Shown here: positions 16,825 through 46,682 of the stretch, piece after piece | Numbering within the stretch: the stretch's first letter is position 1 | Layout of the letters: each line of letters begins with the position of its first letter | DNA from: a virus | Reading direction: 5' to 3' (one strand) | DNA: 56,110 bases | IMG/VR virus record: IMGVR_UViG_3300047550_002572 | Location: 1 to 56,110 of that record | The notes under the pieces: model-generated | The model's input: only the letters and a program-made list of their open reading frames with translations | Database searches by the model: none | Told to the model about the DNA's origin: nothing | Made by a program: the position numbers and the translations under genes

Positions 16825-18024
16825 GTGGATCCTTCCTCCTTCACTGTCATGTCGCTTTGTGCCGGAATCGGAGGGCTCGACCTCGGACTCCGACTCGCTG
16901 TTCCCTCTGCTCGAACAGTATGTGTGGTGGAGAGGGAAGCCTTCGCCATCGCGCACCTGGTCCAAAAGATGGAAAACGGTCACTTGGACCCAGCACCTAT
17001 CTGGACGGACCTTACTCGGTTCGACGGCAAAGCGTGGCGTGGCGTCGTGGATTGCATCATTGGTGGCTACCCGTGCCAGCCATTCTCGGTTGCGGGAAGA
17101 CGAGCTGGAACCGACGATCCAAGACATCTGTTCCCACACATTGCCCGCATCATTGCAGAGGTGCAACCTGCCGTGGTGTTCTTCGAGAACGTCGATGCCC
17201 ACCTTACCCTTGGATTTGAAGAAGTCGGAGAGCGACTTCAAGAACTGGGTTACATCGTTACGGCAGGCGTATTCTCAGCGTCAGAAGTGGGCGCTCCGCA
17301 TCGTCGAAAACGGTTGTTCATCCTGGCCCATCGCTACGGCAATGGATTCGGTAGGGAGTCGATCACAAGAATACCCAACTATCAGCGGACGACACAAAGG
17401 AACGACGCTGACCGACGCGATCCAGCAATGGCGTACTCCGAGCGCATCAGACGGCGAGGGTGGAGTGATGGAGATGCGCGCGGGGGCGGACGGCAAGTAC
17501 AAGCTACGCGACCACGCGGTGAACGAGACGAGGAAATGGTTGACGCCATCGTGCAGGGATTGGCGGGACGGTCGGGCTTCGGAGGAGACAATGAGTCACA
17601 ACAGCAGACCTCTGAACGAGGTGGCAGTTCATTCGGTTCGCACACAACCTTTGGCGGGGGAGACGCTTTCCGACATCGCGGTGGTGAAGATGGACGAGTG
17701 GCAAACCCCGGCGTCCTTTCAGGGCAGGACCAGGCGGCAGGGGGCGACGAGGGAGCAGCGCCAGGCCAGCCAGGTGGAGGCCATGCTCCCGCTGCAAGCG
17801 GAGAAGATCGCGCTTTCTCTTTGTTCCCCCCAGCACCAGACGACATCGACCGATGGCAAGAAACCGACAAAGAGCTCTGGCCTGCAACTCAATCCGATGT
17901 TCGTGGAGTGGTTGATGGGAATGCCTCACGGGTGGACCGACTGCGAGCACTTGGAAACGGAGTCGTTCCGCTTGTGGCAGCAGTCGCATTCCGAACTCTT
18001 GCAAAGGACCTTAGATTGCTATGA
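16825..18024 (+). CDS. DNA cytosine-C5 methyltransferase
   Basis: A 399-residue C5 methyltransferase starting at GTG 16825. Motifs are intact: LCAGIGGLDLGL (11-22), the PCQ catalytic loop with Cys84, ENV 121-123, PHRRKRLF 158-165, and the C-terminal RALGNGVVP near 374-382. Residues about 170-365, where target recognition should lie, are Gly/Arg-rich and low in complexity. A second frame over the same bases (17342-18046) encodes sequence typical of other phage methylases, so this half seems dual-coding. It probably protects phage DNA from restriction. It overlaps the SbcC gene start by ATGA. Confidence 0.9.
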   Translation: MDPSSFTVMSLCAGIGGLDLGLRLAVPSARTVCVVEREAFAIAHLVQKMENGHLDPAPIWTDLTRFDGKAWRGVVDCIIGGYPCQPFSVAGRRAGTDDPRHLFPHIARIIAEVQPAVVFFENVDAHLTLGFEEVGERLQELGYIVTAGVFSASEVGAPHRRKRLFILAHRYGNGFGRESITRIPNYQRTTQRNDADRRDPAMAYSERIRRRGWSDGDARGGGRQVQATRPRGERDEEMVDAIVQGLAGRSGFGGDNESQQQTSERGGSSFGSHTTFGGGDAFRHRGGEDGRVANPGVLSGQDQAAGGDEGAAPGQPGGGHAPAASGEDRAFSLFPPAPDDIDRWQETDKELWPATQSDVRGVVDGNASRVDRLRALGNGVVPLVAAVAFRTLAKDLRLL

Positions 18025-23779: not shown

Positions 23780-23808
23780 AGTATATACTATCTTTGCCGC
23801 CGCTTCAA
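23780..23808 (-). promoter_or_regulatory. Leftward promoter for the tail-tip/lysis genes
   Basis: On the minus strand, TTGAAG (23803-23808) is 17 bases from TATACT (23780-23785). The -10 overlaps the palindrome AGTATATACT. It lies in the last codons of the 2266-residue gene and would transcribe the genes from 23753 to 21446. Confidence 0.75.
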
Positions 23809-26800
23809 CAACGAAGGGCTGTTCCTCACAGGGTTGGTGGGGGTTACTGGGTTTATTGGTAGTGGTTCAGCTTGCTGCATCCCTTTTGACCGTAGTCGTT
23901 CGTTGCCGTAATGAATCGGGACCATCCGAACATGTGCAGGGATGTAGTTAGTAGGCATATAGTTTGATTGGTTTCGACGTAGCCGTTCCTGAATGATGTC
24001 TGCTTCTGTCACATCGGATTCGTGCTGCTCGAGGTAATCTTTGGCTTGTTCGTTCAGGTGCTCTTCTATCATCTCGTGGAGCATCGGGCGCAACCGAGCG
24101 TCAAGACGGCTGTACGCCGCTTTCGTCGGGTTTATGGCGTTGTCTATCGCTGTCATTACAGAGTCCATATCTGTCAGGACATAATTACCTTCTGGGTTGT
24201 AGGCCTTCCAATACTCTCGCATCTTTCGAGAGCCTGGGGGCACCCCTTCCTTGGTTGCGAAGACGATGATCTCTTCTAGTTTCTGCTTGAACTCAGGAGA
24301 CCCATACGGCAGTCGCATTGCGAGCTCTACGCGAGACTGAATGTTCCGCGTGAGCTGGGACTTGGCCCAAGCGTTTTCCTTCTCGATCTCTTGCATCGCT
24401 TCGGTTTCAAAAGGCTTGGGCTTGGTGGGCGTCATTCCAAGCCAGACCATCGCTGCTTCTTCTCCTGTCATCGGAGAGCCTAGCATATGGCGCAAACCTT
24501 GGAACCACCCTTCGCCCGGCTCCACTGGAGTGCTTGGGCCTTCCCGAACCGCAAGAATATCTCCAACGTTAAGCACTTTGTGCAGTGCAAAGTTGAATGC
24601 AGCCTGCATTGCTTCAGGAGTCGCGGCATCGGGAGGCCACAAAGGTTGGCCGGATTTGTCTTTCCCTGTTCCCAGTTCAACTACGGCATTGAAAAACGGG
24701 TGGAGCTGCCCCAGGAACGAGTTTACTGCACGCTGGAACCCACCTTCATACACCGTACTTTCTACGGTTTTCTGAAGAGGCTTGAACATCATGAACATTG
24801 GAAGAGAAGCGAAAGTTCCGTCAGCCCATTCTACGTCGAACTTGTGGCCTGGCGGGTTGTCAAACGTGGGTCTGCCGTTGATGGCAATGTTCAGCATGTT
24901 GTTGAACGCCACGTTCGCAACCATCGTCCCCACGAGATAGTTACCGAGCTGTTTCTTGCGCTGCATCTCGACGGCGGGGGAGATCTTGAAGGCGTGGCGA
25001 GAACGATATCCTGCCGCCTTAAACACGCTGTCCAAAGAATCAACCAACGTATCCCATTTCGACCCTGCATATTGCGGAGCCAGCGTAAGTATCTGCAAGC
25101 CAGTGCGTACCGCAGGGCTCTGCATATGGTGCTGCACAACGCCCGCAAGCCGGTTCACATGATCTGCTGACATTCGCTCGGCAATCGCCAGTGCCGCTGC
25201 GTAGTCGCCACCGGTCTGCTCCATCAGCTTCGTCCCGTTGGCCCGCATCGTCTGACCCGTGTAATAGGCCCACGCCCCAAGCTGGGCGTCACTGAGAGCG
25301 CGGAATAGCCCCACGCTGTTAAGGAACGCATCGGCCCCGTCTAGGAAGCGAAGAGGCATCAAAAGCGTAGAATCAAGGATACCGCCAGTCTTTGCCATCA
25401 GTTTGGCGAACGGGGTGTTCAACCCGAATCGCTCGGTCGCCATCTGCTGTATTAGAGGGTTCTGCTTGGCGGCAGAAACCATGTCGGTGTGCAGCGACGT
25501 GGCGTTGCGGAGCAGAGAAGCGGGCTGAAGCCCTGCGTTCAGTGCTCGGATCATCATAATCCCGCCCTGATCTTCTGCGAGATGCTGCCCTATGGGGATC
25601 AATCCAAACGCCTTTGAGAAGTTGTAACCGAGCAAAGTTGTGTAGTTGCTCATCACCGAGGTCATGTAGTTGAGCGGAGGACCGACCAGCGAAAGGCTGC
25701 GCCAGCCAGTGTACGCCTTTGCTACCTGCCCCATCCCTCCCGTCGTCTGGGGAGAAGTCAGGTAGTCATTGATCAGGTTTGCCGCTTGGGGGTGAATCTT
25801 CCAGCTCCCAATCGCCTTCCCGCCGCTGTATCCCGCAAACGCAGGAACGTCGGATAGGCTCAGGTACTTGCCTTCCTGCATCTGCGACATCCCGCTCTTG
25901 CGGTAGTCGGCTCTGACGTTGGCTTCTGCGAAGCTTTCAAATCGCTTGTTCTTGATGCTGAACAGCAACGGAAGACCTTCGGGGCCTTCCATAATCTTCA
26001 GCTGGTTCATGAACCGTCGAGCGCCGTCTGCGCGGAACGTCGCGTGGACAATCGTGTGAAGGATGTCGCCAACGTCGGTCACAGCGTCGCCCAGAAGCAC
26101 GTTGTGCAGAAGGTCGGAAGCTATGTTCTCATTTACCCCAAGCGCCGCAGCTCTCTGCTGCATCGCCGTCATCCCTTTGCCGCCGTGAAACCCGAACGCA
26201 TATTCTTCCCAGCTCGTGATCGGTTTGCCTTGAGCCGTGGAATAATCTGTGATCTCTTTCATGGCGTCGTTCGCCATGGTTTCGGCTTTCTCGATGGTCT
26301 CAATCTTTCGGGCCTTCTCCCATCCTGCGTGAGGAGACATACGAGCCACGTCATTGCCGCCTCGCTGGATGTACGTCAGGAACCGAGGATGGGTGTGCAT
26401 GAAGTAGTTGGCACGGAACACCGCCGCCAGCTCGGGAGATTGCTGCTTAAACCGCTCAACTGCAGTCATCACGTCGAAGTAGGTTCGAAGCGGCGCGGCG
26501 AGCTGAGACCCGTTCACCTTGACGGTATTGCCTCTTGGGGTCTTAACATCGTAAGACCCTTTCAGGAAGTCGATGAGGGTGTCTTTTCCCCCTTCAATGG
26601 CCGCGACGAGTTTTCGCGTGAACTGCGGGTCAGCTTTTTCTCCCCGCCGAAGCTTAAATATCTCCCCGAATTGCTTGTTGAAGTCTTTCGCTACGTCGTC
26701 TGCAACGCGAAGTGCCGCTTTTTCGTAAGCCATCATGTGATTGGCGAAGTATGCGCTTCCCCCAAACACTTGGTCTACCGTTTCAAAAGGCTTCATCTGC

Positions 26801-29800
26801 CGCGCCAGTGTGCTGAACGCTCGTGTGCCGCTGGAGAACAGGTCTCGGACCCGCTCGATGTAATTGTACGGCTGCGGGGTGTTGGCGTTAGGGACTTTAC
26901 CCGCCGCAATGCCCTCAAGTACGCTACGCGCTGCAGACATTGCGGGAGTTGCGTCTTCCGACATCAACACTGCACCCATCTGCGACAGGGCACTGTCTGT
27001 CGTGTGGATCAGGGCGGGGTCGAGGGCGGCTTCTGCCAGTTTTTCTGCGCTACCGGCCAATGCCCCAATCGGAATGCCGTTCGGGAATGCGTCGCTCTTC
27101 AGGTCCAAGAGACGAGCGAGGAAGTCTGACGCGGTAGGATTTGCAGAGGACATGAGCTCTCGCAATGACGCAGGGATGAATTCAATAGCCCCAGGGATGC
27201 TCATCTCTTCTGTTTTGACGACTTTTGTTTTAACTTTGCCGCCAGGCCCCAAAACAGGAGCCCCATCTTTTGTAACAACTTCCTTGGTCTTTACGGTTTT
27301 GGTAGCCCCACCCAGACGGTCTGCGAAGTCGTCGATGTACCGTATAGCCGCTTTCAATGCGCTGGCTTTCTTGCCGCTTGTGCGAGCCATGGATTCTCGC
27401 ATCGCAGTAGACGCTTGCCGAAGCATAGCGACCTGATTCTCTGCCGCAAGTCGGGTAGGAGCCGACGCTAGAATAGAAGCGTCTACCTGAAGCTGCAGTT
27501 CGCGTTGAAGAAGGGGAACTCGGTTCGCTCCCTCTTTTGGTTGCCCTGTCGCAGGGTCAAGAGGCTGAGAAGCCAGTTGCGCTCTTTCTGTCAGCCGCTG
27601 AACCGTCAATTCATGTTCTGCTTTTTCTGCTGCACTCAACCCATAATTCCCGGAAGTCAAGTGCATTGTAAGAGCGTTTTGATAGTTAGGAATTCGCCCC
27701 TCTAGAAGAGCCGCTTTAGCCTCGGCCTGCACGGTATTCAAAGCTGCTCGGTTCGCAGACAATTTGTTTCGCAGGTCCACGAAAGCCGAATCGTTTACAA
27801 TGAACGGGTTGCTTTCTGCTGCGGCAAGGCGAAGACGGGGGTTTTTAATTGGGTCTGGCAGACTAAGAGACGTGCGAAGACCTGAGTAATGCAGTACCTC
27901 AGGGTCTGACAACAAAGCAGAAACCTCTGCGCTTTTTGTTTTCAGTTCTGCTTCGAGTGTTTTAGCGTAAGCGGTCGGCTTACCGTCAGAACCTGTATGC
28001 GGGATTGGGCTCCCTCCTCTAGGGTTCGGGGAAGACCCAGCCAGAATTTCCGCATTGATCTGGTCTACGCGGTCGGCCAGCGTCCTGTAGCGAAGCACTT
28101 GCGGGTTAGCTTCCATCGCTGTCATCTTGCTAGTAACTGCGTCTAGCGTTTTTTGAGCTGCGTCTCGCTCAGCGTGCGCTTGCCTAGAGCCAATGGAGAT
28201 ACCGCGGATATCTCGGTCGAATCGAGACAGTGCCGCTTCGTTTGTCTCAATCACATCGAGGTGTGCCGTGTGGTTTCTTGCAGCGTGGTCCATGTACGCG
28301 ATCCCTCGCGTGCTGTCGCGCACGAGGTTTGCAAACCACCCTCGAGTGTTGTCGTCCATCAGCTTGGCGTTGGATTCTGCAAAAGAGATAAGACGGTCTT
28401 TCAGGGCTTGCGGAAAGTTGGGAGAGTCCCACATATTGTCTGCAAGACTAGCCGCCTTTTTCCCGTACTCCCCAAAGATCCCAGTGCCTTCGCGCATCTT
28501 CCCGAGCATGTACATTGCCATGTCGGGGCCCTTTTTGAACATACCTCGAACAGTCGCAGCCAACGCTCCTCCGAACGCAGGAAAAACCGCAGTGATTGCA
28601 GCCCCGACCATAGCGTTGTTTCGCCCTGCGACATAGGCGGGCCACATCGCCTGTTCAAGAGTTTTTCCTTGCTGGAACTGGTTTTGGAGCTCTTTGTTCA
28701 TGCCTTCAATACCGAAGACAGTGCCCCAAGTGATGATGTGCCCAAGCTGGCCTTTCTGAGCCAGATAGCCCAATGCCGGTTCAATTTGATGGGTGGCAGA
28801 CCACTCACCGGCCTTCACCAGTGCGGGAGGAAGTTTTTCCGCAAGCAGGCTGAGTCCACCCGACATCGCTGTACGCCCTGCATTGGCAGTAGCACTTCCC
28901 GCCGATGTGAGAAGATTCTTGACGGCAGACGGGATGAACTTTGCCGCCATAATGCCTTCGGCCATGTAGTTAAGAATGGGAAGGTTTGAAGCAAAGTCGT
29001 TGAACCCCATCGCCATTACTGCGCCATTGCCCCAGTTGGCGGGGTTGAAGATCCCAAGGGTGCGTCCTTCGTACTGCTCACGCCACTTCGCGTAGTCTTC
29101 AGGAACCCGCATCTCTGCAGAAAACACTCCAGGTATATAAAGCAGAGAATGGTTGATCGAATGCTTCATCGTCGCGACGGTCCATGCCGAATCGTCCACT
29201 GTGCCATCTGATCGAACCCCATTCCGGAGCATGACCTGAGGCAAGAGGGACTGAGAGATGCGCTGCTCTGGGTCTTGCGCGGTTACGAACGAAGACAGCG
29301 GGCTGTTCTTGTACGGGGGGGCGATCTCGCTCATCGGCTTTGTGAAGAAGTGGAACGGATCGGCAAACGACACAGCGGCAGATAGCATCGTTTTTGCGTT
29401 ACGAGCCATCTGCTCTTGCTCTTGAGGCATCGGGATCGGGCCCCAGCCTGTAGTGTCGGTAACGGTGTCTTTTCGAGTGATGCCCGTATTGCCTATCGTG
29501 GAAGGCTGGCTGTAATCGCCCAGCTCCTGCCGTCCTTTTCGCGCCACTACACCAGGCGCTGACTGGAAGTTCGGATTGTTTACCGCAGCGTCGACATCTT
29601 TTGTGTCAATGCCAAGAATGTTGGCGACATAGTTCTTCGTCTCTTTGTAATCGACCGACCCGTTCTTTATAAATCGAAGAAGACCGGTGTGCTCTTTTGC
29701 GTCGCCAATCCCTGCGTTGTATGCCGCAAGAGCTCGAGCAGGATTGTTGTTAACCTCGGGACGCTGCATCAAGTCTTTGAAATGATCGACAGCCACCATC

Positions 29801-30588
29801 ATCTGCAGGTTCTCGTTGTTAAGGTAATCGTCCCACGTCTTACCTCGCGCCTTCAGGTATTGTGCCGCCGTGCCGGGCATCATCTGCCCCAAGCCGACAG
29901 CTCCTGCCGAAGACTTTGCATCTGGGCGCCAAGCCGATTCCGCACGAAACAGGTTGGAAATAAGGTCTGGGTCAACGCCCTGCTTCGCTGCGTAGGTGCG
30001 GGCAAAGTCTTCCATGTTGGAGCCCGTCCGCACCCTGCCGCTCACCTGCTGCACTGGAGTTTTTCCTTTTGGCAGCGTCTGTGGAAGGCTTAGGTGGAAA
30101 TGCGCGTTTGGATCGCTGTCGCCAGTCCACTCATCAAGCAAGCGCAGGTTGTATTTGTCAGCCAGCGCCTGGAGCTTTGCTAGGCTCTCTGGAGTCTTTT
30201 TGAAGTTCCAGTCGGGAATTACATCAGCCGCTTGCCCAGAGTAGTGCAACGAACCCGTAGTGTGCCCTTTTCCGTCAAGACGAGCGCCGTTGCTGATCTG
30301 ATACTGCGGCCAGATCGTCTGCGCTTCCTTGGAGAACTGCGCGAACCGCTGGGCGAACAAAGGGTGCATGTCGTTGATCTGTTCAAGACCGACAGGGCTT
30401 TGTCTCGGCAGGGAGCTCAGGTAGTGGTAAGGGTTGTTTGGGGGGGCGTTGGGGTCGGAGGAGCCTGTGCTACTAATGCGAGACATAACCCCGTCCCACA
30501 CAGAAGGGGGAGCAGGGGTTGCAGAAGCTGACAAAGGGTCGGTAAGGTTGTTTGGGGAGATCTTTAGGTTGTCCCAAGGGCTTCCCAT
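23788..30588 (-). CDS. Giant virion ejection protein with peptidase and lytic transglycosylase domains
   Basis: A 2266-residue protein, the largest here. Near the N-terminus is a VanY/M15-type domain (SLHYSGQAAD with His115 and Asp122, then HFH 163-165). A lytic transglycosylase domain follows at about 190-345, with Glu217 in RAESAW, GLGQMMPGT at 232-240 and AAYNAG at 288-293. The remainder is mostly helical, with Ala/Gly-rich hydrophobic stretches (about 530-700), long charged helices and a segment resembling the large polyvalent-protein associated domains. Such proteins leave the virion with the DNA, dig through the wall and form the entry channel. Pro-rich ends may be cleaved. Confidence 0.85.
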   Translation of the reverse strand: MGSPWDNLKISPNNLTDPLSASATPAPPSVWDGVMSRISSTGSSDPNAPPNNPYHYLSSLPRQSPVGLEQINDMHPLFAQRFAQFSKEAQTIWPQYQISNGARLDGKGHTTGSLHYSGQAADVIPDWNFKKTPESLAKLQALADKYNLRLLDEWTGDSDPNAHFHLSLPQTLPKGKTPVQQVSGRVRTGSNMEDFARTYAAKQGVDPDLISNLFRAESAWRPDAKSSAGAVGLGQMMPGTAAQYLKARGKTWDDYLNNENLQMMVAVDHFKDLMQRPEVNNNPARALAAYNAGIGDAKEHTGLLRFIKNGSVDYKETKNYVANILGIDTKDVDAAVNNPNFQSAPGVVARKGRQELGDYSQPSTIGNTGITRKDTVTDTTGWGPIPMPQEQEQMARNAKTMLSAAVSFADPFHFFTKPMSEIAPPYKNSPLSSFVTAQDPEQRISQSLLPQVMLRNGVRSDGTVDDSAWTVATMKHSINHSLLYIPGVFSAEMRVPEDYAKWREQYEGRTLGIFNPANWGNGAVMAMGFNDFASNLPILNYMAEGIMAAKFIPSAVKNLLTSAGSATANAGRTAMSGGLSLLAEKLPPALVKAGEWSATHQIEPALGYLAQKGQLGHIITWGTVFGIEGMNKELQNQFQQGKTLEQAMWPAYVAGRNNAMVGAAITAVFPAFGGALAATVRGMFKKGPDMAMYMLGKMREGTGIFGEYGKKAASLADNMWDSPNFPQALKDRLISFAESNAKLMDDNTRGWFANLVRDSTRGIAYMDHAARNHTAHLDVIETNEAALSRFDRDIRGISIGSRQAHAERDAAQKTLDAVTSKMTAMEANPQVLRYRTLADRVDQINAEILAGSSPNPRGGSPIPHTGSDGKPTAYAKTLEAELKTKSAEVSALLSDPEVLHYSGLRTSLSLPDPIKNPRLRLAAAESNPFIVNDSAFVDLRNKLSANRAALNTVQAEAKAALLEGRIPNYQNALTMHLTSGNYGLSAAEKAEHELTVQRLTERAQLASQPLDPATGQPKEGANRVPLLQRELQLQVDASILASAPTRLAAENQVAMLRQASTAMRESMARTSGKKASALKAAIRYIDDFADRLGGATKTVKTKEVVTKDGAPVLGPGGKVKTKVVKTEEMSIPGAIEFIPASLRELMSSANPTASDFLARLLDLKSDAFPNGIPIGALAGSAEKLAEAALDPALIHTTDSALSQMGAVLMSEDATPAMSAARSVLEGIAAGKVPNANTPQPYNYIERVRDLFSSGTRAFSTLARQMKPFETVDQVFGGSAYFANHMMAYEKAALRVADDVAKDFNKQFGEIFKLRRGEKADPQFTRKLVAAIEGGKDTLIDFLKGSYDVKTPRGNTVKVNGSQLAAPLRTYFDVMTAVERFKQQSPELAAVFRANYFMHTHPRFLTYIQRGGNDVARMSPHAGWEKARKIETIEKAETMANDAMKEITDYSTAQGKPITSWEEYAFGFHGGKGMTAMQQRAAALGVNENIASDLLHNVLLGDAVTDVGDILHTIVHATFRADGARRFMNQLKIMEGPEGLPLLFSIKNKRFESFAEANVRADYRKSGMSQMQEGKYLSLSDVPAFAGYSGGKAIGSWKIHPQAANLINDYLTSPQTTGGMGQVAKAYTGWRSLSLVGPPLNYMTSVMSNYTTLLGYNFSKAFGLIPIGQHLAEDQGGIMMIRALNAGLQPASLLRNATSLHTDMVSAAKQNPLIQQMATERFGLNTPFAKLMAKTGGILDSTLLMPLRFLDGADAFLNSVGLFRALSDAQLGAWAYYTGQTMRANGTKLMEQTGGDYAAALAIAERMSADHVNRLAGVVQHHMQSPAVRTGLQILTLAPQYAGSKWDTLVDSLDSVFKAAGYRSRHAFKISPAVEMQRKKQLGNYLVGTMVANVAFNNMLNIAINGRPTFDNPPGHKFDVEWADGTFASLPMFMMFKPLQKTVESTVYEGGFQRAVNSFLGQLHPFFNAVVELGTGKDKSGQPLWPPDAATPEAMQAAFNFALHKVLNVGDILAVREGPSTPVEPGEGWFQGLRHMLGSPMTGEEAAMVWLGMTPTKPKPFETEAMQEIEKENAWAKSQLTRNIQSRVELAMRLPYGSPEFKQKLEEIIVFATKEGVPPGSRKMREYWKAYNPEGNYVLTDMDSVMTAIDNAINPTKAAYSRLDARLRPMLHEMIEEHLNEQAKDYLEQHESDVTEADIIQERLRRNQSNYMPTNYIPAHVRMVPIHYGNERLRSKGMQQAEPLPINPVTPTNPVRNSPSLLKRRQR

Positions 30589-32511
30589 TTACTTCTTGTC
30601 CTTTTGATTGGGCTTAGGAGGAGGGGCAGTGATGAAAGGAATCACGGGAACGTTGATATTGTGGTCTTTTGCGTATTGTTCCATAGTCAACCCGTGGTTG
30701 TACGCAATTCCGTATTTCTCCAGCAACCAATCCGTTTGGCGAATGTAGTTCATCAGTGCGACGTAGTGGCGATATTGGCCCGGAAGCATTCCTGGGCGGC
30801 TAACCCACTGCTGATACGACATAATATGTCCCAAACGCAATTCAGCCATGATCTGGGGGTCATACAGAACGCCGTTGTATAGGTCGGACACTTGTTGCCC
30901 GCTCAACATATCCTTGCCATCGACGGATTTGTCGGGAACGAAAGCCATCTCATCCGCATCCCACTTCTGCGGACGAGCCGGAAAGAAGAGATAGTGCTGA
31001 TAGGTGTTTGGGTGCTCGGATACGGTCTTTGCGACAGAGACAAAGTCGAAGTTCTGGGTCTTTGACGCAATCGCCAACCAGTTTGTGATTCCAAGTGTTT
31101 TGCTTTGTGCGCTCTGCGAGAAGTTTTGTCGGTAATCAGTTGCTTCACTTTGTACTTGCTCGGCAAGCTGATCGTAGATCTTTTTTGCTGTAATTACTTG
31201 ATTCTGGGCGTCAATAAATTCTGGTGTAGGTACTTTCGTGAGCCCCGGATTGGTTGCTTTTTCTTGTGCATTAGGAGGTCGAAACCAAGTTGAAGTGCCT
31301 TGCATCGAACCCACTTTGGTTTGAGCAGCGACGTACTGATTCCACGCTTGTTCGGCAGCGACTTGGGCAGCGTTGACTCGCCCTGCTGCTATCCTCTCGT
31401 TTTGCGCCAAACCTTCCAACGAGAGTCGAACGCCTGTGGCGTCCCTTTCTGCATTAAGGTGCTGGGCCTGTGCGATAGCAAGCTGGATCTTTGCCTTTTC
31501 GGCCATTGGAGCCAAGCCAAGAACAGCGCGACGCTCTTCGGCCTGAGCCATTAAAGCCTCGGTCTGCGCTCGCTGCAAACGAATGCCTTGCAGCCCCGTT
31601 TCTCTTTCTACCTCTTCGTAAGACCGCTCTTTGAGTTTCTGAGCACGCGCTGCCGTTTCTGCATTCAGCTTGCTTGCTTCTGCTTGCGTTCTGTTTGTAA
31701 GGAAGTTTCCAATCTCTTTGTTGTCCAAAAACGCAGTGGCCGAATTCATAAGGGTCAATCGAGCTCGAGCAGGCATGGCGTCCAGCTTCTTGACGAAGTC
31801 GGTGGTCAGGTAGGCTTTTCGGTCGGCAGACCCCGAAGGCCACGAGCCAGTCAGTCGCTCATGCCGAACGCCGTTGATCAGATCAGAAGCGTCGAGTAGG
31901 TTTTGCGTCGTCAGATGCTCCATTGCCAGATGGTCGGTCCCGCCGTTTTTCCCTGCAACGGCTTGAAGCGCGTCTTCTATCATGTCGAACGACTGGCCCA
32001 GCATATACGAATAAGGGTTCTGTGCAAAAAAGGCAGTTAACCCCCCGCCAACTCCTTGCGCGGCTTGGTAGAAGTTTGATACCAACGCTTCTTGAAACGC
32101 AGAAACGGCTGCTCGCGCTGCCGGAGTTTTCCAGCTGTTGATGTATTGTTGTGGCGGGGCAGGACGGCCCAAGATTGCGTCCAGTGACTGATCATAAGAA
32201 AGGTTGGGAGGGGACGGCAAACCCAGCTCTTCTCGAGAAGGGACTCGAAGCATTCTATAGGTCTGCGGAGCCGGCTGCTGGGTAGAGGGGGACGCCAAGT
32301 TATATACAGCAGAAAAGTCTGGAGGCGTCTGCGCGGGAGGGAGCATCGCCGGAGCAGCGGTGGCAGGTGCCGAAGGCGGCGCAACAGGCACTGCCTTTGG
32401 CGCTCTGCTAGGCGGTGCTTGGGCCATCGGGGTCAGATCTACGGGAGGGGCAGAATCCTGAGTACCCCCAGAAGCCGGATCGGAAAACGGGACCCCGTTG
32501 TAGTCAATCAC
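30589..32511 (-). CDS. Probable internal virion/ejection protein
   Basis: A 640-residue protein. The first 100 residues are rich in Pro and Ala. The middle (about 260-460) is a long Ala/Gln/Glu-rich coiled coil, and the C-terminus is mixed, ending PPPKPNQKDKK. The gene directly precedes the giant ejection protein and overlaps the 185-residue gene by four bases. Position and composition match internal core proteins of podoviruses. No enzymatic motif seen. Confidence 0.7.
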   Translation of the reverse strand: MIDYNGVPFSDPASGGTQDSAPPVDLTPMAQAPPSRAPKAVPVAPPSAPATAAPAMLPPAQTPPDFSAVYNLASPSTQQPAPQTYRMLRVPSREELGLPSPPNLSYDQSLDAILGRPAPPQQYINSWKTPAARAAVSAFQEALVSNFYQAAQGVGGGLTAFFAQNPYSYMLGQSFDMIEDALQAVAGKNGGTDHLAMEHLTTQNLLDASDLINGVRHERLTGSWPSGSADRKAYLTTDFVKKLDAMPARARLTLMNSATAFLDNKEIGNFLTNRTQAEASKLNAETAARAQKLKERSYEEVERETGLQGIRLQRAQTEALMAQAEERRAVLGLAPMAEKAKIQLAIAQAQHLNAERDATGVRLSLEGLAQNERIAAGRVNAAQVAAEQAWNQYVAAQTKVGSMQGTSTWFRPPNAQEKATNPGLTKVPTPEFIDAQNQVITAKKIYDQLAEQVQSEATDYRQNFSQSAQSKTLGITNWLAIASKTQNFDFVSVAKTVSEHPNTYQHYLFFPARPQKWDADEMAFVPDKSVDGKDMLSGQQVSDLYNGVLYDPQIMAELRLGHIMSYQQWVSRPGMLPGQYRHYVALMNYIRQTDWLLEKYGIAYNHGLTMEQYAKDHNINVPVIPFITAPPPKPNQKDKK

Positions 32512-33065
32512 CCGTTAACACCTCCAAACATATTTGAATCCATGAGCTGAGTCAGAAAGTTTACCTGATCTGTAGCAGGGCTGTAGTAGCTGGTCGGACC
32601 GTTCGGCTTTGCCACTGGCCCATTATAGACAGGGGGGACCGTCAGGGCATCCCATGTGCTCGGCACACTCGATGCGGGCACAGGCGCTTGGTTTGTGCCC
32701 CCGTAAGGTTCTGGCATTTGCATACTCTGTTGGTACTTTTGCCCGCGCCGAACGTTGCTTTCGTACTCCAACGTTGGCAGATGGTTTTGAATATCTGTGT
32801 ACTGTTGAATCATTGCTTCGGGGGCACCGCTAGCCCGAAGAAACGGAACGCCATATGGTTTTGGCATAGTCAGCGCAACCTTCATGGCTTCCCCGATCTT
32901 GCTCTGCGATTCCGCTTGATTAGCTTTTCCTACGTTGTATGCGTGATAGCCCTTCATAGCTTCCCCACCCATCTGAGCGAGCGCGAGAAGCCGAGCCAGG
33001 AACATATCAAACTTCGGCTGGCGTTGGATGATTTGCGGCTGGGCAATGTTCGACTGTACAATCAC
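32508..33065 (-). CDS. Hypothetical virion-module protein, 185 residues
   Basis: Contains an N-terminal helical segment (FDMFLARLLALAQMGGEAMK) followed by a Pro/Gln/Met-rich, probably flexible region. It overlaps both neighbours. A small internal virion or ejection accessory protein is likely from position. Confidence 0.65.
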   Translation of the reverse strand: MIVQSNIAQPQIIQRQPKFDMFLARLLALAQMGGEAMKGYHAYNVGKANQAESQSKIGEAMKVALTMPKPYGVPFLRASGAPEAMIQQYTDIQNHLPTLEYESNVRRGQKYQQSMQMPEPYGGTNQAPVPASSVPSTWDALTVPPVYNGPVAKPNGPTSYYSPATDQVNFLTQLMDSNMFGGVNG

Positions 33066-33412
33066 GCCGAGAACCCTCCAAACATCCCAGGATCAAAAGG
33101 GTTGTCCACTCCAAAAGTACCAGGCATAGCAGGCATTCCCGTGTAGGCGTTTTGATGTAGCATATCTAGGAACGGGTTGCCCATACCGGGAGAGCCCATT
33201 CCCTGCTGCTGTCCTACGCCGAGCAACCCGAGAAGTGACTTCGGACCAGGCCGACCCGTGCGAAGGAAGTCATACGCCGCCGAAGCCATACCAACTTCAG
33301 GAAAGAACATCCCCGCCATCCCCACAAGCGGCTTCAACCAGCCCATCGGGTCCTGCTGGGGAGGGGCCTGTAGCATTTGAGGCTGTACTACGTTCGGTTG
33401 CACGGTATGCAT
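33062..33412 (-). CDS. Hypothetical virion-module protein, 116 residues
   Basis: A Met/Gly/Pro-rich protein with one hydrophobic stretch (WLKPLVGMAGMFFPEVGMAS). It lies between the HNH gene and the 185-residue gene. Both this and the next gene start with similar short segments (VQPNVVQPQ and VQSNIAQPQIIQ), suggesting a shared signal or duplicated N-terminus. Confidence 0.65.
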   Translation of the reverse strand: MHTVQPNVVQPQMLQAPPQQDPMGWLKPLVGMAGMFFPEVGMASAAYDFLRTGRPGPKSLLGLLGVGQQQGMGSPGMGNPFLDMLHQNAYTGMPAMPGTFGVDNPFDPGMFGGFSA

Positions 33413-33424
33413 CGCGCTACTCCT

Positions 33425-33916
33425 TTAGTCGCTCTCAAGAAAGTCTAGACTATCTTGCCAGTTCTGTCCACCCAAGGCAGCAGAGATGGTGCTCTCAGAT
33501 ACACCATACCTCTTCGCCATACTCGCTGTCGATACTCCTCGAAGCTTCAGCCGACGAAGCTCGACCACATCCTCTGCCGTCAGGATGGCGTTGTTCTTGT
33601 GTCTGCCGCGGTCCACCATGTCCTGCATGTTCTCGGTGTGGGTCCCAATCTCCAAGTGACCCGGGTTGCAGCACGGAGGGTTGTCGCACTTGTGCCGCAC
33701 CACCAGACCCGACTCCACAGGGCCATGGTACAACATGAACGTCACCCGATGCGTTCGCTCGATCTCGTCCCCGACGCGGATCTTGCCATACCCGTCTGCG
33801 TCTTTGGCCCCCTGAAACTCCCAACAGGGGGTGTCCAGCCCTCGAGGCTCCTTCTTCAAGCGACGGGTCAGTCGGTCTTTCAGCACTACCGCTCTGTCCT
33901 CGGCTATTGCGATCAT
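33425..33916 (-). CDS. HNH homing endonuclease
   Basis: A 163-residue free-standing HNH enzyme. The HNH domain runs from CWEFQGAKDADGYGKI (about 31-46) through ERTHRVTFMLYHG to VVRHKCDNPPCCNPGHLEIG. A C-terminal helix-turn-helix-like part (LRGVSTASMAKRYGVSESTI) would bind target DNA. It overlaps the upstream gene by one base and interrupts the ejection-protein block, typical of a mobile, selfish gene. Confidence 0.88.
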   Translation of the reverse strand: MIAIAEDRAVVLKDRLTRRLKKEPRGLDTPCWEFQGAKDADGYGKIRVGDEIERTHRVTFMLYHGPVESGLVVRHKCDNPPCCNPGHLEIGTHTENMQDMVDRGRHKNNAILTAEDVVELRRLKLRGVSTASMAKRYGVSESTISAALGGQNWQDSLDFLESD

Positions 33917-36681
33917 CAGAACCCTCCAGGAAGCAGACGACGGTCTGCATTCGGCGGGGTGTACCCACGAAGACGGGCAACGTACTGTCGAATCGCTTCT
34001 TCCTGCTCAGGCGTGAGGCGGCGGGTGGGCCGCACCTCCTGCACTGCGTCTCCGCGACCCTGCATCAGCGCACGAGTCAGATCGCCTGGCTGAACCCCAC
34101 TGGGTCGCTGGGGTTTCTGCGCCATCGCCCGAGGAAGCTGGATAGGCGGCTGCTGGGGCATCACCGCTCTGTGCTGCTGACGAAACTGACGCCGAGTCTG
34201 CGCGGCTTCTTCCTGCGGGTAGGCTCCTGTTGCCGCTTTCATCAACGGCTGCACGACAGGACGAGCGAACGGTTCGGCCATCTTCCCCATACCGTACCCC
34301 ATCGTAGCGGCACGGGTGACTGGATTGAACATAGACGCCACACCCGCCAAACCTCCTACAGTCGGAAGCCACGACGAGGAAGAAGGCGCTTGCCCTGTCG
34401 CCGCCGTGATTGCATCTCGAGTGGCGTCGGCGCCAATCAAACCACCCATAGCAGGCTCGACCAGCTTCGGTGCAGCAGCGTATGCTGCCGAAAACAATGC
34501 ACCCATCAGTCCGGCGTGAGCGGCAGCCTTTACCGCCTGCTCGTGGGTAGCCCCGTTCTGTATTGCGTCGGCGTAGGCCGATGCCGCAGGGAAGCCGAGC
34601 CCTGCCGTTGTTCCCGCCACCAAGCCAGACGATGCTGCCCCTCTTCGCCATCCGTTTCGCCCTTTTGGTTCGCTGTACGGAAGAGGTTCGAATGACTCAG
34701 TAACGGGATTCCACGACCCTACAATTGGGCTAGGGCGATGTCCCCCTTTGTTACCGAACGACACTGAAGGTGGCGATATTGGCTCCGTATTCTTTTTGAT
34801 CTGAAACGCAACACCTTCAGGAGGAGTGTCAGTTACATATTCCGGAGGGACGACAAATTGATGCTCTCCTCCTGTTTTTCTGTATCTAGCCGTAGGGTCA
34901 GGCATTGGTTCTTCTACAGGGTGATAAAGAGTCCAATCTCCTGGCTCTTGAGACAGATTTGCAACGTGCTCGGCCTCCCAGTGTTCTAGGTCGGCATTTT
35001 CTTTTATTTTTTTGAAAAGAGGAGCAGCGTGTTCTCCTTCGTATATTTTTCTATAAGTTTTTGGATTTGTTAAATCTACCGAATTGTCCCAGAATTCTGA
35101 AAATATTTTACCTGTTTTTGAGTCTTGAATTATAGGGTCAGATTCTTTTGAAGACAAAGCTCTTGTAGTAGAAGGATGCCAATCAAAGCCTTCAGGAAAT
35201 GCTTTATTGGGGGTATCTGTATAAAAAGGGTTGTCGGGCACGGCAGAAGTCGCGTAGTCGGTAAGATAGGCGTGCAAAGAAGGGTTGGTGCCTTTCAACT
35301 CTTTTCTAGACAACCACATAGAAGGGTTTAGATATTCTTCGTTTGCTGCCGCTGGATGAAACATCTGAGTTGCCGCAGAAGTAGCGTCCATAAACGGGTA
35401 TAGCTCAGTCCACCCGTAAGTCCTACGAGGTTGAGCTCGCGCATACAGTTTTTCCGCAATCAGTTCTTCAATAGATTTTTCTGGGGGGTAATTAGCCGAG
35501 TTCTGCCCAGATGATGGCGGCATATCGCTATTTCCGTGTTCTCCTCCCGGCAAAGGCATACCGCTTCTGCCGTAAGAGGGTGTTATGTTTTCTGATTGTG
35601 CTAAAGACGGCCCGCTTGCGTTAGAACCCCGACGTTGGAACATCTCGCTGCCCGGCGCGGGCGCCACCATCTTCGGCGCGACGGTGGGCTCGGCGGGGGA
35701 GACCGGCACGTTGCCTTGAGGAGCCCATATCTCGATGCGGTCCCGCTGGGGGGCGGCGGGCTGATCCCATCCAGGCTGGGTGTAGTCCATGTACGCTTTG
35801 AGCAGATGCTTGACCGTAGGAATGTCCCACCCGTTGCCAATCATCTTCTTCTGCTCGGTCCACGGGGCGCCCGCTGCAGCCATAGTCCCTTCAGGAATGC
35901 CGTGGAGCATCTCTCCCGCTCTAGGGGTCCAACGCCAAATCTGCCCGCCGGGTTCGAGCTGCACCGTATCGTAGGGGATCCCGTGAGCGCCATACGCTCG
36001 CGTCCAAGCTCGAGCCTTGGGAAGGTCCCAGCCGCGCATCGGCTTCCACAATTTGCTCGTGTTCTTCTCGTAGCCCTGAGTGCCTTCAGTCAGGCGGTAG
36101 GTGCGGTGCTCATTAAACGGGTCGAACAAATGCCGAGCAGGGTCAATCAGCTCGCGAGGGTCTACGCCCTGCCCCTCCATCGGCTTGACGGGGAACGTAG
36201 GCCAGAAAAGACGAGGGCGGCTGACACCACCCACATGGCCTGCGTCCAACAAAACGGGGGAAATACCGAGACGGTTGCTGATGGCATCTCGGGTTTGAGG
36301 CGTCATCGACGCTACGCTCTCAAACCACCCATGCGGGTTGCCCAGCGCGTCCCACAAATCCGCAGTCGGGTAGAACAACCCTGAGCGAGCACCCGACAAC
36401 CCCTGACGATTGGGCGTGCCAATAGACACGTCTTGGCAAGGAGGGCCTGCCGTAAACAGTCCGGGTTTGCACGGGAACCTTCCCGGAGTTACACCCTCAA
36501 TAGGGCCGAGATGCTGGATGTTGGGATTCAATGCTTGGGAGGTTTTTACCGCCCATGGGTTCATTTCGGGGTGCTCTGAAGCCCAGTGCTCTCCAATAGA
36601 AATACCAAGCTGCCGAAGGGCCTCTGCACCACTGCCCCACCCGTCAAAGGCCGAGAAGTAGTCAATAGGACTCGGCGGCAT
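33916..36681 (-). CDS. Cytosine-C5 methyltransferase fused to virion/ejection-type protein
   Basis: A 921-residue protein. Residues 1-300 are a cytosine methyltransferase: YFSAFDGWGSGAEAL (8-22), GPPCQDVSIGTP with catalytic Cys82, SGARSGLF, FESV for the ENV motif (Glu121), GGVSRPRLF (151-159) and MIGNGWDIP (280-288). All key steps appear present. Residues about 300-650 are a polar region of unknown fold encoded by AT-rich DNA. Residues about 655-800 are Ala/Gly-rich and membrane-like, as in ejection proteins, and the Arg/Gln-rich C-terminus is flexible. Its place among internal virion genes suggests injection with the DNA to methylate it on entry. Confidence 0.8.
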   Translation of the reverse strand: MPPSPIDYFSAFDGWGSGAEALRQLGISIGEHWASEHPEMNPWAVKTSQALNPNIQHLGPIEGVTPGRFPCKPGLFTAGPPCQDVSIGTPNRQGLSGARSGLFYPTADLWDALGNPHGWFESVASMTPQTRDAISNRLGISPVLLDAGHVGGVSRPRLFWPTFPVKPMEGQGVDPRELIDPARHLFDPFNEHRTYRLTEGTQGYEKNTSKLWKPMRGWDLPKARAWTRAYGAHGIPYDTVQLEPGGQIWRWTPRAGEMLHGIPEGTMAAAGAPWTEQKKMIGNGWDIPTVKHLLKAYMDYTQPGWDQPAAPQRDRIEIWAPQGNVPVSPAEPTVAPKMVAPAPGSEMFQRRGSNASGPSLAQSENITPSYGRSGMPLPGGEHGNSDMPPSSGQNSANYPPEKSIEELIAEKLYARAQPRRTYGWTELYPFMDATSAATQMFHPAAANEEYLNPSMWLSRKELKGTNPSLHAYLTDYATSAVPDNPFYTDTPNKAFPEGFDWHPSTTRALSSKESDPIIQDSKTGKIFSEFWDNSVDLTNPKTYRKIYEGEHAAPLFKKIKENADLEHWEAEHVANLSQEPGDWTLYHPVEEPMPDPTARYRKTGGEHQFVVPPEYVTDTPPEGVAFQIKKNTEPISPPSVSFGNKGGHRPSPIVGSWNPVTESFEPLPYSEPKGRNGWRRGAASSGLVAGTTAGLGFPAASAYADAIQNGATHEQAVKAAAHAGLMGALFSAAYAAAPKLVEPAMGGLIGADATRDAITAATGQAPSSSSWLPTVGGLAGVASMFNPVTRAATMGYGMGKMAEPFARPVVQPLMKAATGAYPQEEAAQTRRQFRQQHRAVMPQQPPIQLPRAMAQKPQRPSGVQPGDLTRALMQGRGDAVQEVRPTRRLTPEQEEAIRQYVARLRGYTPPNADRRLLPGGF

Positions 36682-37563
36682 CTACTTCTTGCCTCCCCCG
36701 CCCCCGCTCACGGTCTGGGCGCCTGGAATGATTGTAGGGGCCATAATCGGGCTACCGTTCAAATACCCAAGACCTGCCTGCAGCGGGGCGTTGTTGATGT
36801 TAGAAATCATCCCCAACATCGACGGGACGACGTTCTGAGCCTGCTCAGTTGCCTGCATCGGACTGCCAAGGATACGCTGCGCTGCCTGCGCGGCCAACCC
36901 CTGCCGATTGATTGCCAGCGACTGTGCGGTCTGCCCAAGGTTGGACGCCGCTTCCGCTCCCAGCTCTCGAGCCGAGTTGAGGTACCCGCTGTGAAACGGG
37001 GTACCCCCGAACTTGTTCCCAAGCTGGGCCATCTGGGAATTCAGCAGACGGGTCTGGCGCTCGCCCTCGGAATTGAGAAAAGCGTTCTCTGTTGCGTTGA
37101 ACCCCGGCTGGAACAACCCCTGCTGAAACGCAGCAGCCCCAGGAATCGCCTGCGCCCCGAACGAGGCGATAGTAGACGCCATGTTCTGGTTGGCTTGGTA
37201 AGGATCGGTGATTCCGCTGTTGCCGTTGAAGAAATGGCTTTGGGCGTCGGTCATCCCACCGCTACTCCCTGGGCTGCTGGGGTCTACTGCAGATGTCGGC
37301 TTTGTCGTTGGGCTGCTGGTAGTTGCACTCCCCGAAGAAGTGCTGGTCGAGCTCCCTGACGATGTGTTGTTCGAGGGGAACTTGCCGCCACCGCCTGCAG
37401 AAGGGCCAGACCCCATAGGGGGAGGCTGAATCCCATAAGGGTTGAGATTCCCTCCATACGCGCCAGGCCCTGAAGCGGTGCCCGAATGAGGGCTCTGCCA
37501 AGACGAGAAAGGAACAGGACCTACATTGTTGTTGGTCCCTTGATTAGTAGGTGAACCGCCCAT
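36682..37563 (-). CDS. Probable internal virion/ejection protein, 293 residues
   Basis: The N-terminal third is Gly/Ser/Pro/Thr-rich and disordered. From about residue 110 it is helical and Ala/Gln/Asn-rich (QANQNMASTIASFGAQAIPG, LNSARELGAEAASNLGQTAQ), with a Gly/Lys end. This resembles podovirus internal core proteins. It abuts the methyltransferase fusion with no gap and is probably part of the same assembly. Confidence 0.65.
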   Translation of the reverse strand: MGGSPTNQGTNNNVGPVPFSSWQSPHSGTASGPGAYGGNLNPYGIQPPPMGSGPSAGGGGKFPSNNTSSGSSTSTSSGSATTSSPTTKPTSAVDPSSPGSSGGMTDAQSHFFNGNSGITDPYQANQNMASTIASFGAQAIPGAAAFQQGLFQPGFNATENAFLNSEGERQTRLLNSQMAQLGNKFGGTPFHSGYLNSARELGAEAASNLGQTAQSLAINRQGLAAQAAQRILGSPMQATEQAQNVVPSMLGMISNINNAPLQAGLGYLNGSPIMAPTIIPGAQTVSGGGGGKK

Positions 37564-45368: not shown

Positions 45369-46682
45369 TTATTTGTTTTGCTTGTTAAACCACTCAATTA
45401 CGTCTGAAGCGTCTTTTTGTTCTCTTGCTCTTTGAGTGGCTGTTCGATAAGCATCTCGCACATCATTTACAGCGCGACGACCCGCTTTCATTTCAGGAGT
45501 AACTCTTCTAAGTGTTGTTCCAATGTTGTTTGCGGTGTTTAGCAACTGCACTCCTGTTTTTATTGCACTTGCAGGGATCAAAGAACCTAAAGCAGTCAGC
45601 GCGGCATTAGTAAGTTCGTTGTAAGGGGTAGGACCCCACACAGGACTAACAGGCGGCTCAGACCGTGGAACAAAACGGTCGTCAAGAAGCCGAAAACTCG
45701 GTGCTTCATTTGTTGGAATGGAATTGGGGAAAGAAAAAGGAACATTGGTTGAAGTTTTAGCCGAATAAGTTGAATAAGTTGATTTTGGTGCCGTAGCCTG
45801 AACAGGCTGTGCTGGCGCAGTGGGGGGCTTCGACGCAGGCTTATTTGGCTGGCCTGCTTTGGTTGGAGCATTTGAAGCGGGGGCTGGTGCGCCGTTTTTC
45901 TTCGAAGCGTTGCCCACAACTACGTCGTATACTTTTCCCAAACGGTCTCTATACCGTTTAATAATGTTGCCTGTTTTTTGATCAGCGAAGGTTTGAATAA
46001 GTGTATCGGGTTCATTAGACACAGGGATTTCACTAGGCGCAGGCATCACTCGCCCTGTTACCGTGCGACTAGTACCGCCAGCGCGTTGATAGTCCTGTTT
46101 TGAGTCTTGAGCCTGCATCGCTTGAACGCTGGAATTCGTGTAGGTATGACTGGGGCCCGCAGAATACGAACGCTGCGCGGGAGCGGAAGGACGAGCATAC
46201 GACGTTTTCTTTGCGGCAGGGCGCGTTGCGGGCGCAGCAGGTTGCACTGGCTTGGGGTAGTAGGCAGGACGACCTTGGGCCCCAGTTCTTGCTCCTTGAA
46301 GAGCCGCGATCTGTAGCATCTGCGCCATCTTTTGCGGATTGACGCCTGCTGGGGAAGGCTGAGACATCCCCGGCGGCGTCATCCGAACTACTTCAACTGT
46401 GTTTTCCTCCCGCGGAGAAGAAGGAGCAACCAGCCCATGCGGAGTCGGAGCGGGGGGAGTGCGGTACTCCCACTGGTCAAACGACTGGTCGGGCAACACC
46501 GGCCCTGCGTAAGAGTACTGCGGGTGATGTTCGAACTCCGAAGCAAAGTGCATCGGAACCGGCATCGGCGCAACGAGCTGACTCGGATGCTGGAGCATGG
46601 GGATGAACGAATTAGCCAGCTGGGCTTGATGGTTTTCTGGGTAATAAGACCCGCCGCTCAGTTCTGGTCTATAATCGAACAT
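45369..46682 (-). CDS. Pro/Ala/Gln-rich protein between scaffold and capsid genes
   Basis: 437 residues, mostly low-complexity Pro, Ala, Ser and Gln with an interspersed folded section (about 225-265, TLIQTFADQKTGNIIKRYRD) and a helical, basic C-terminus (TPEMKAGRRAVNDVRDAYRT). The 3' half of the gene is AT-richer than its neighbours. Position suggests a minor head protein or an internal head protein. Not recognised. Confidence 0.65.
   Translation of the reverse strand: MFDYRPELSGGSYYPENHQAQLANSFIPMLQHPSQLVAPMPVPMHFASEFEHHPQYSYAGPVLPDQSFDQWEYRTPPAPTPHGLVAPSSPREENTVEVVRMTPPGMSQPSPAGVNPQKMAQMLQIAALQGARTGAQGRPAYYPKPVQPAAPATRPAAKKTSYARPSAPAQRSYSAGPSHTYTNSSVQAMQAQDSKQDYQRAGGTSRTVTGRVMPAPSEIPVSNEPDTLIQTFADQKTGNIIKRYRDRLGKVYDVVVGNASKKNGAPAPASNAPTKAGQPNKPASKPPTAPAQPVQATAPKSTYSTYSAKTSTNVPFSFPNSIPTNEAPSFRLLDDRFVPRSEPPVSPVWGPTPYNELTNAALTALGSLIPASAIKTGVQLLNTANNIGTTLRRVTPEMKAGRRAVNDVRDAYRTATQRAREQKDASDVIEWFNKQNK

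Follow-up and report, generated by a model that had tools for sequence, protein, structure and literature searches.

Does a gene that joins a cytosine methyltransferase to a long C-terminal extension, and that stands among the late genes of a phage, encode an enzyme carried in the virus particle? The window analyzed here, a virus record of 56,110 bases in which terminal repeats were not detected, holds such a gene (Table 1), which a sequence-only reading had described as a complete cytosine methyltransferase fused to an internal virion protein. The fusion is real and lies in one frame: 921 codons run without interruption on the minus strand, and the plus strand of the same interval has many stops. 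A codon-usage profile derived from 13 other genes in the window favors the frame in each stretch of 100 codons as far as codon 900, and it fits the methylase part and the C-terminal part alike. Because codon usage is continuous across the fusion, the two halves form one coding frame as sequenced, not two genes connected by a missed stop; the methyltransferase frame is not separate from the rest, and nothing suggests an assembly error in this single contig. The start codon abuts the stop codon of the upstream 293-aa gene and the stop codon overlaps the start codon of the downstream HNH gene, so that the gene stands in a tightly packed row of late genes. The sole strong Shine-Dalgarno site in a scan for internal translation starts lies at codon 781, and scans for promoters and terminators gave no excess over shuffles.

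Table 1. Coordinates in the window of the fusion gene, its parts, and the neighboring or related genes
Feature	Coordinates	Strand	Basis or remark
921-aa fusion gene	33916..36681	-	Single open frame, codon usage continuous; ATG directly after upstream TAG; stop TGA overlaps HNH start
DNMT3-type C5-cytosine methyltransferase domain, residues 1-300	35782..36681	-	Sequence and predicted fold
Motif I, F12-D13-G14	36640..36648	-	Invariant in 88 relatives
Motif IV, P81-C82-Q83, nucleophile Cys82	36433..36441	-	Alignment with 88 relatives
Motif VI, E121-S122-V123	36313..36321	-	Glu kept; Asn (88/88 relatives) replaced by Ser
Motif VIII, R155-P-R157	36211..36219	-	Alignment with 88 relatives
Motif X, G282-N-G-W285	35827..35838	-	Alignment with 88 relatives
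Pro/Ser/Gly-rich linker, residues 301-400	35482..35781	-	Composition; predicted disordered
Orphan middle region, residues 401-690	34612..35481	-	GC3 0.27-0.43 vs mean 0.68 in other genes
Gly/Ala-rich part, residues 691-800	34282..34611	-	Confident helical hairpin at about 695-735
Arg/Gln/Pro-rich basic tail, residues 801-921	33919..34281	-	Composition
293-aa Gly/Gln/Ser-rich late protein	36682..37563	-	TAG abuts fusion-gene ATG
HNH_3 endonuclease with C-terminal helix-turn-helix	33425..33916	-	ATG overlaps fusion-gene TGA
116-aa late protein, start of presumed gp14-15-16-like set	33062..33412	-	Assignment inferred from order and size
185-aa late protein	32508..33065	-	
640-aa late protein	30589..32511	-	No family (Pfam, PHROGs)
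2266-aa presumed ejection protein	23788..30588	-	SLT transglycosylase domain at 197-299
Second, canonical C5 methyltransferase, early/replication block	16825..18024	+	Pfam, PHROGs, motifs

By homology and predicted fold, residues 1-300 are a member of the DNMT3-type C5 methylase family. The fusion protein matches PF00145 above the Pfam cut-off (24.5 bits) and phrog_116 in PHROGs (1.3e-19, residues 2-324), and the catalytic domains of DNMT3B and DNMT3A are its top phmmer matches in the PDB (E 6e-14); at these phmmer and phrog_116 values, chance is excluded for the methylase half. An AlphaFold2 model, built with 45 phage relatives in the alignment, is of high confidence over about residues 1-180 and 250-300, with pLDDT mostly >90 over 1-170 and 251-300 and the recognition region 191-237 poorly modeled, and a Foldseek search with the predicted fold returned DNMT3B/3A structures (E 2e-19). 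Taken together, the Pfam, PHROGs, PDB, and Foldseek matches assign the domain to the DNMT3 type. A motif check and an alignment with 88 phage relatives bear out the earlier description of C5-methyltransferase motifs that stand in order, with Cys82 inside PCQ and IGNGW at the end. The mammalian DNMT3A/DNMT3B catalytic domain, the best PDB match in both sequence and fold, shares with the phage domain a short recognition region and the closing motif (GxSW, or GNGW in the phage). The two differ in that identity is about 20%, the phage protein is without the eukaryotic regulatory domains, and its motif VI reads ESV, not ENV.

The genome is divided between the two strands. On the plus strand, the genes between 1 and 21 kb encode, among others, a UDG-PolA fusion, an SMC-like ATPase, and a second C5 methylase. 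The minus strand, from about 54 down to 21 kb, carries the genes for the terminase, an SU10-like portal, a capsid protein of the HK97 type, a head-closure/stabilization-type protein, a collar-domain protein, the fusion protein, the HNH protein, and four proteins of 116, 185, 640, and 2266 aa, of which the largest has an SLT domain. This layout points to a short-tailed phage. The fusion gene shares its strand with the late and structural genes and lies upstream of a gp14-15-16-like set that ends in the SLT-bearing protein; the sizes of its neighbors (185, 640, and 2266 aa with SLT) recall the T7-type gp14-gp15-gp16 set. No similarity between the fusion gene and any ejection protein was detected. 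Its placement between a Gly/Gln-rich protein and the 2266-aa giant was described correctly as to the late block and the abutting Gly/Gln-rich gene, but four genes (HNH and those of 116, 185, and 640 aa) separate it from the giant. The other cytosine methylase gene that had been pointed out is indeed present, on the opposite strand and within the early block, and the late copy would be superfluous unless it works at a different site, in a different place, or at a different time.

We propose, with a probability of roughly 0.45, that the gene encodes a late-made C5 methylase with a C-terminal extension that places it in the virion, and that its role is anti-restriction. In this scheme, the DNMT3-type enzyme would be made late in infection, and its long extension would bring it to the virion or to the apparatus for DNA ejection. 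It would enter the cell together with the genome and modify the incoming phage DNA against restriction before the early methylase exists, and the early methylase would then take over in replication. That the protein is catalytically active, packaged, delivered, and used against restriction is inferred; in favor we count the DNMT3-type sequence and fold, the retention of Cys82, Glu121, Arg155/157, and GNGW, the position on the late structural strand upstream of the SLT-ended set, the early second methylase, the hairpin and basic tail of the C-terminal half, and the DarB precedents. Against this reading we count the lack of a homologue of residues 301-921 in the databases searched, a hairpin likeness that is not significant, the substitutions N122S, D60P, and D74G, and the non-structural enzymes in the late block of Pelagibacter phage HTVC033P.

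The chief rival is a late methylase that is not packaged. Such an enzyme would modify replicated DNA during assembly, before packaging, so that progeny are protected by DNA that is already modified, and its C-terminal part would dock on the packaging or portal machinery or be dispensable. The gene's place in the late block suits this account as well, and so do the related phage enzymes that were sampled, which are solo and have no virion link. In IMG/VR, the 80 closest methylase relatives all stand alone, none longer than 425 aa. The solo DNMT3-type phage enzymes (phrog_116; Microcystis phage MaeS, Klebsiella phage RaK2, Justusliebigvirus muut, and IMG/VR loci L009-L088) share the domain family at about 24-31% identity over residues 6-295, but they are free-standing, of up to 425 aa, and those aligned retain the motif VI Asn. 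The five of these enzymes examined in annotated phages lie among replication, methylase, or hypothetical genes.

HTVC033P, the sole annotated phage with a recognizable portal relative, also speaks for this rival. Only the portal and a 524-aa structural protein are alike in sequence between it and this phage. Its late block holds enzyme cargo, namely, two 2OG-Fe(II) oxygenase genes and a putative ferrochelatase (L003:29480-31594), between fiber-type and ejection-type genes. Enzymes encoded there need not be virion parts, and position in the block is thus no proof of packaging. On the other side, the replication block already supplies a second C5 methylase, and a 620-residue extension, missing from the sampled viral relatives, is needless for simple methylation. 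We consider a non-packaged late methylase less likely than a packaged one, although better placed than the two remaining alternatives, a weak or inactive DNA-binding fold and, last, a fusion with no special role.

Searches of IMG/VR, GTDB genomes, and INPHARED turned up no close relative of either the phage or the full-length protein, which does not in itself prove that close kin are absent. Single-protein peptide patterns from the whole protein and from residues 1-310 confirmed no relative in IMG/VR and GTDB genomes, and searches for relatives of the phage through the terminase, the giant protein, the portal, and the 524-aa protein gave none that was close: the portal has only marine-type relatives, at about 18-23% identity, and the 524-aa protein has one short contig.

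How far the methylase half remains an enzyme can be judged from its residues. Those invariant across the 88 aligned phage relatives and kept here are F12-D13-G14, E39, P81-C82-Q83, E121, V123, R155, and R157; GNGW at 282-285 is likewise kept. Three positions depart from the family: the motif VI Asn of all 88 relatives is Ser122, residue 60 is Pro instead of Asp (81%) or Ser (18%), and residue 74 is Gly where 99% of the relatives have Asp. Given N122S, D60P, and D74G, to call the methyltransferase complete, as had been done, is too strong. The retained residues make methylase activity probable, and the three substitutions could weaken or abolish it. The same substitutions, together with the poorly modeled target-recognition region 191-237, would fit a methyltransferase fold that has been turned into a structural or scaffold component for binding DNA, with little or no catalysis, much as mammalian DNMT3L is inactive. 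Against this, Cys82, Gln83, Glu121, Arg155/157, and GNGW are all kept, whereas an inactive fold should shed them over time, and we regard such reuse as quite improbable.

The C-terminal half is less readily placed. In residues 401-690, GC3 per 100 codons is 0.27-0.43 over most of the length, and its minimum falls below that of any of 191 windows from 22 other genes (mean 0.68, standard deviation 0.12, minimum 0.31), which suggests that this middle region (34612-35481) is a module of foreign origin. Similarly low GC3, with a minimum of 0.31, occurs in the gene for a 437-aa Pro/Gln-rich protein between the capsid and portal genes (45369-46682, minus strand). Residues 691-800 consist of about 40% Gly and Ala and form the stretch richest in these two residues among 25 genes checked. 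The sort of features found in ejected proteins includes a Gly/Ala-rich hairpin and a basic tail such as these. Searches of Pfam, PHROGs, the PDB, and 50,697 phage records gave no match to residues 301-921, which resemble no known ejection protein in these collections in either sequence or fold. Modeled alone, the C-terminal part has a mean pLDDT of 43 and is usable only for the helical hairpin at about 695-735, the sole fold-level hint in this half. A likeness of that hairpin to residues 593-678 of the 2266-aa protein, appealing on visual inspection, was rejected: 7 of 200 block shuffles, a control that preserves local composition, reach its score, and the comparison was one among 24, so the likeness carries no evidential weight. 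Since residues 301-921 match nothing, the label of virion protein is based on gene location and composition. The identification of this half as an internal virion protein accordingly gained nothing from homology searches, and structure prediction gave no virion-protein fold match.

A search for the same fusion elsewhere was equally negative, with no second example of a methylase joined to such an extension among the 80 nearest IMG/VR relatives or 80 bacterial and archaeal genome loci with related methylases; the fusion is a single-genome observation. The longest open reading frames at the cellular loci encode 702-729 aa, and these fusion-like C5-methyltransferase frames were set aside, as they have a long recognition region and a weak Mom-like C terminus that is not virion-type. 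They are C5 methylases of 729 aa (L231:7977-10163) and 702 aa (L233:7977-10082) from Bacterium 1XD42-76 and Pseudoflavonifractor sp.; their C-terminal match to the Mom family scores 23 bits against a cut-off of 27.1, and they may be two-modification fusions. A chance or recent fusion, in which an inserted methylase, possibly with the adjacent HNH gene, was joined to an unrelated late gene without any special role, would agree with the HNH overlap at the stop codon, the foreign-looking GC3, and the lack of a second example, but it is very improbable, as the GC3 anomaly lies in the orphan middle and not in the methylase half and frame and codon usage are continuous. The HNH gene itself probably encodes a homing-type endonuclease; the methylase-HNH pair could also be given a restriction-like reading.

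Methylases that are carried in virions and serve anti-restriction are already established. P1 DarB is found in the capsid, and DarB-like SLT-helicase-methylase giants occur in Bcep22-like podoviruses; in DarB and these giants, which are packaged or presumed packaged, an adenine methylase is coupled to a helicase (PMC5512222, PMC10269572, PMC6630229). The interpretation given in the sequence-only reading is, as a whole, supported in part. Like P1 DarB and the giants (Lessievirus; CSP3 orf43; Atu_ph08 gp21), for which action on incoming DNA in cis has been proposed or shown, the fusion protein is a large phage protein with a methyltransferase domain, tied to virion or ejection genes. The DarB-like giants, however, combine a gamma-class adenine methylase with an SF2/SNF2 helicase and, in some podoviruses, an SLT domain in the same chain, whereas the fusion protein carries a DNMT3-type C5 methylase without a helicase and the SLT domain is encoded by a separate gene. 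Its translation lacks the NPPY/NPPF motif of gamma-class adenine methylases, and no helicase family was found in it in Pfam or PHROGs. Judged by these domains, it is not a DarB, being of another methylase class and without a helicase. The injected anti-restriction proteins Ip1-Ip3 of T4 inhibit nucleases and are not methylases (PMC12373910).

The DNMT3-type methylase domain belongs to a known family, and its architecture with this C-terminal extension was not found elsewhere in our searches. We advance only tentatively, with the odds leaning against it, the more specific claim that a virion-packaged, injected DNMT3-type methylase provides C5 modification at entry, independently of the adenine methylase-helicase route of DarB and alongside a separate, early-made cytosine methylase that serves replication. 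If packaged and active, the protein would be an entry-time cytosine methylase and a simpler, helicase-free answer to restriction than DarB, with a DNMT3-type domain in service within a virus particle. A single protein and its catalytic mutant would then allow a direct test of the speed at which incoming DNA is modified.

Two further arrangements were observed. DNMT3-type methylase genes occur in tandem, two or three per viral contig, at L016, L044, L054, L060, L061, L066, and L081. In the present genome, the plus-strand gene at 6612-9092 joins a uracil-DNA-glycosylase-like domain (aa 28-161) to a family A DNA polymerase, and this UDG-PolA fusion has near-full-length matches, at 22-23% identity, in a few phages.
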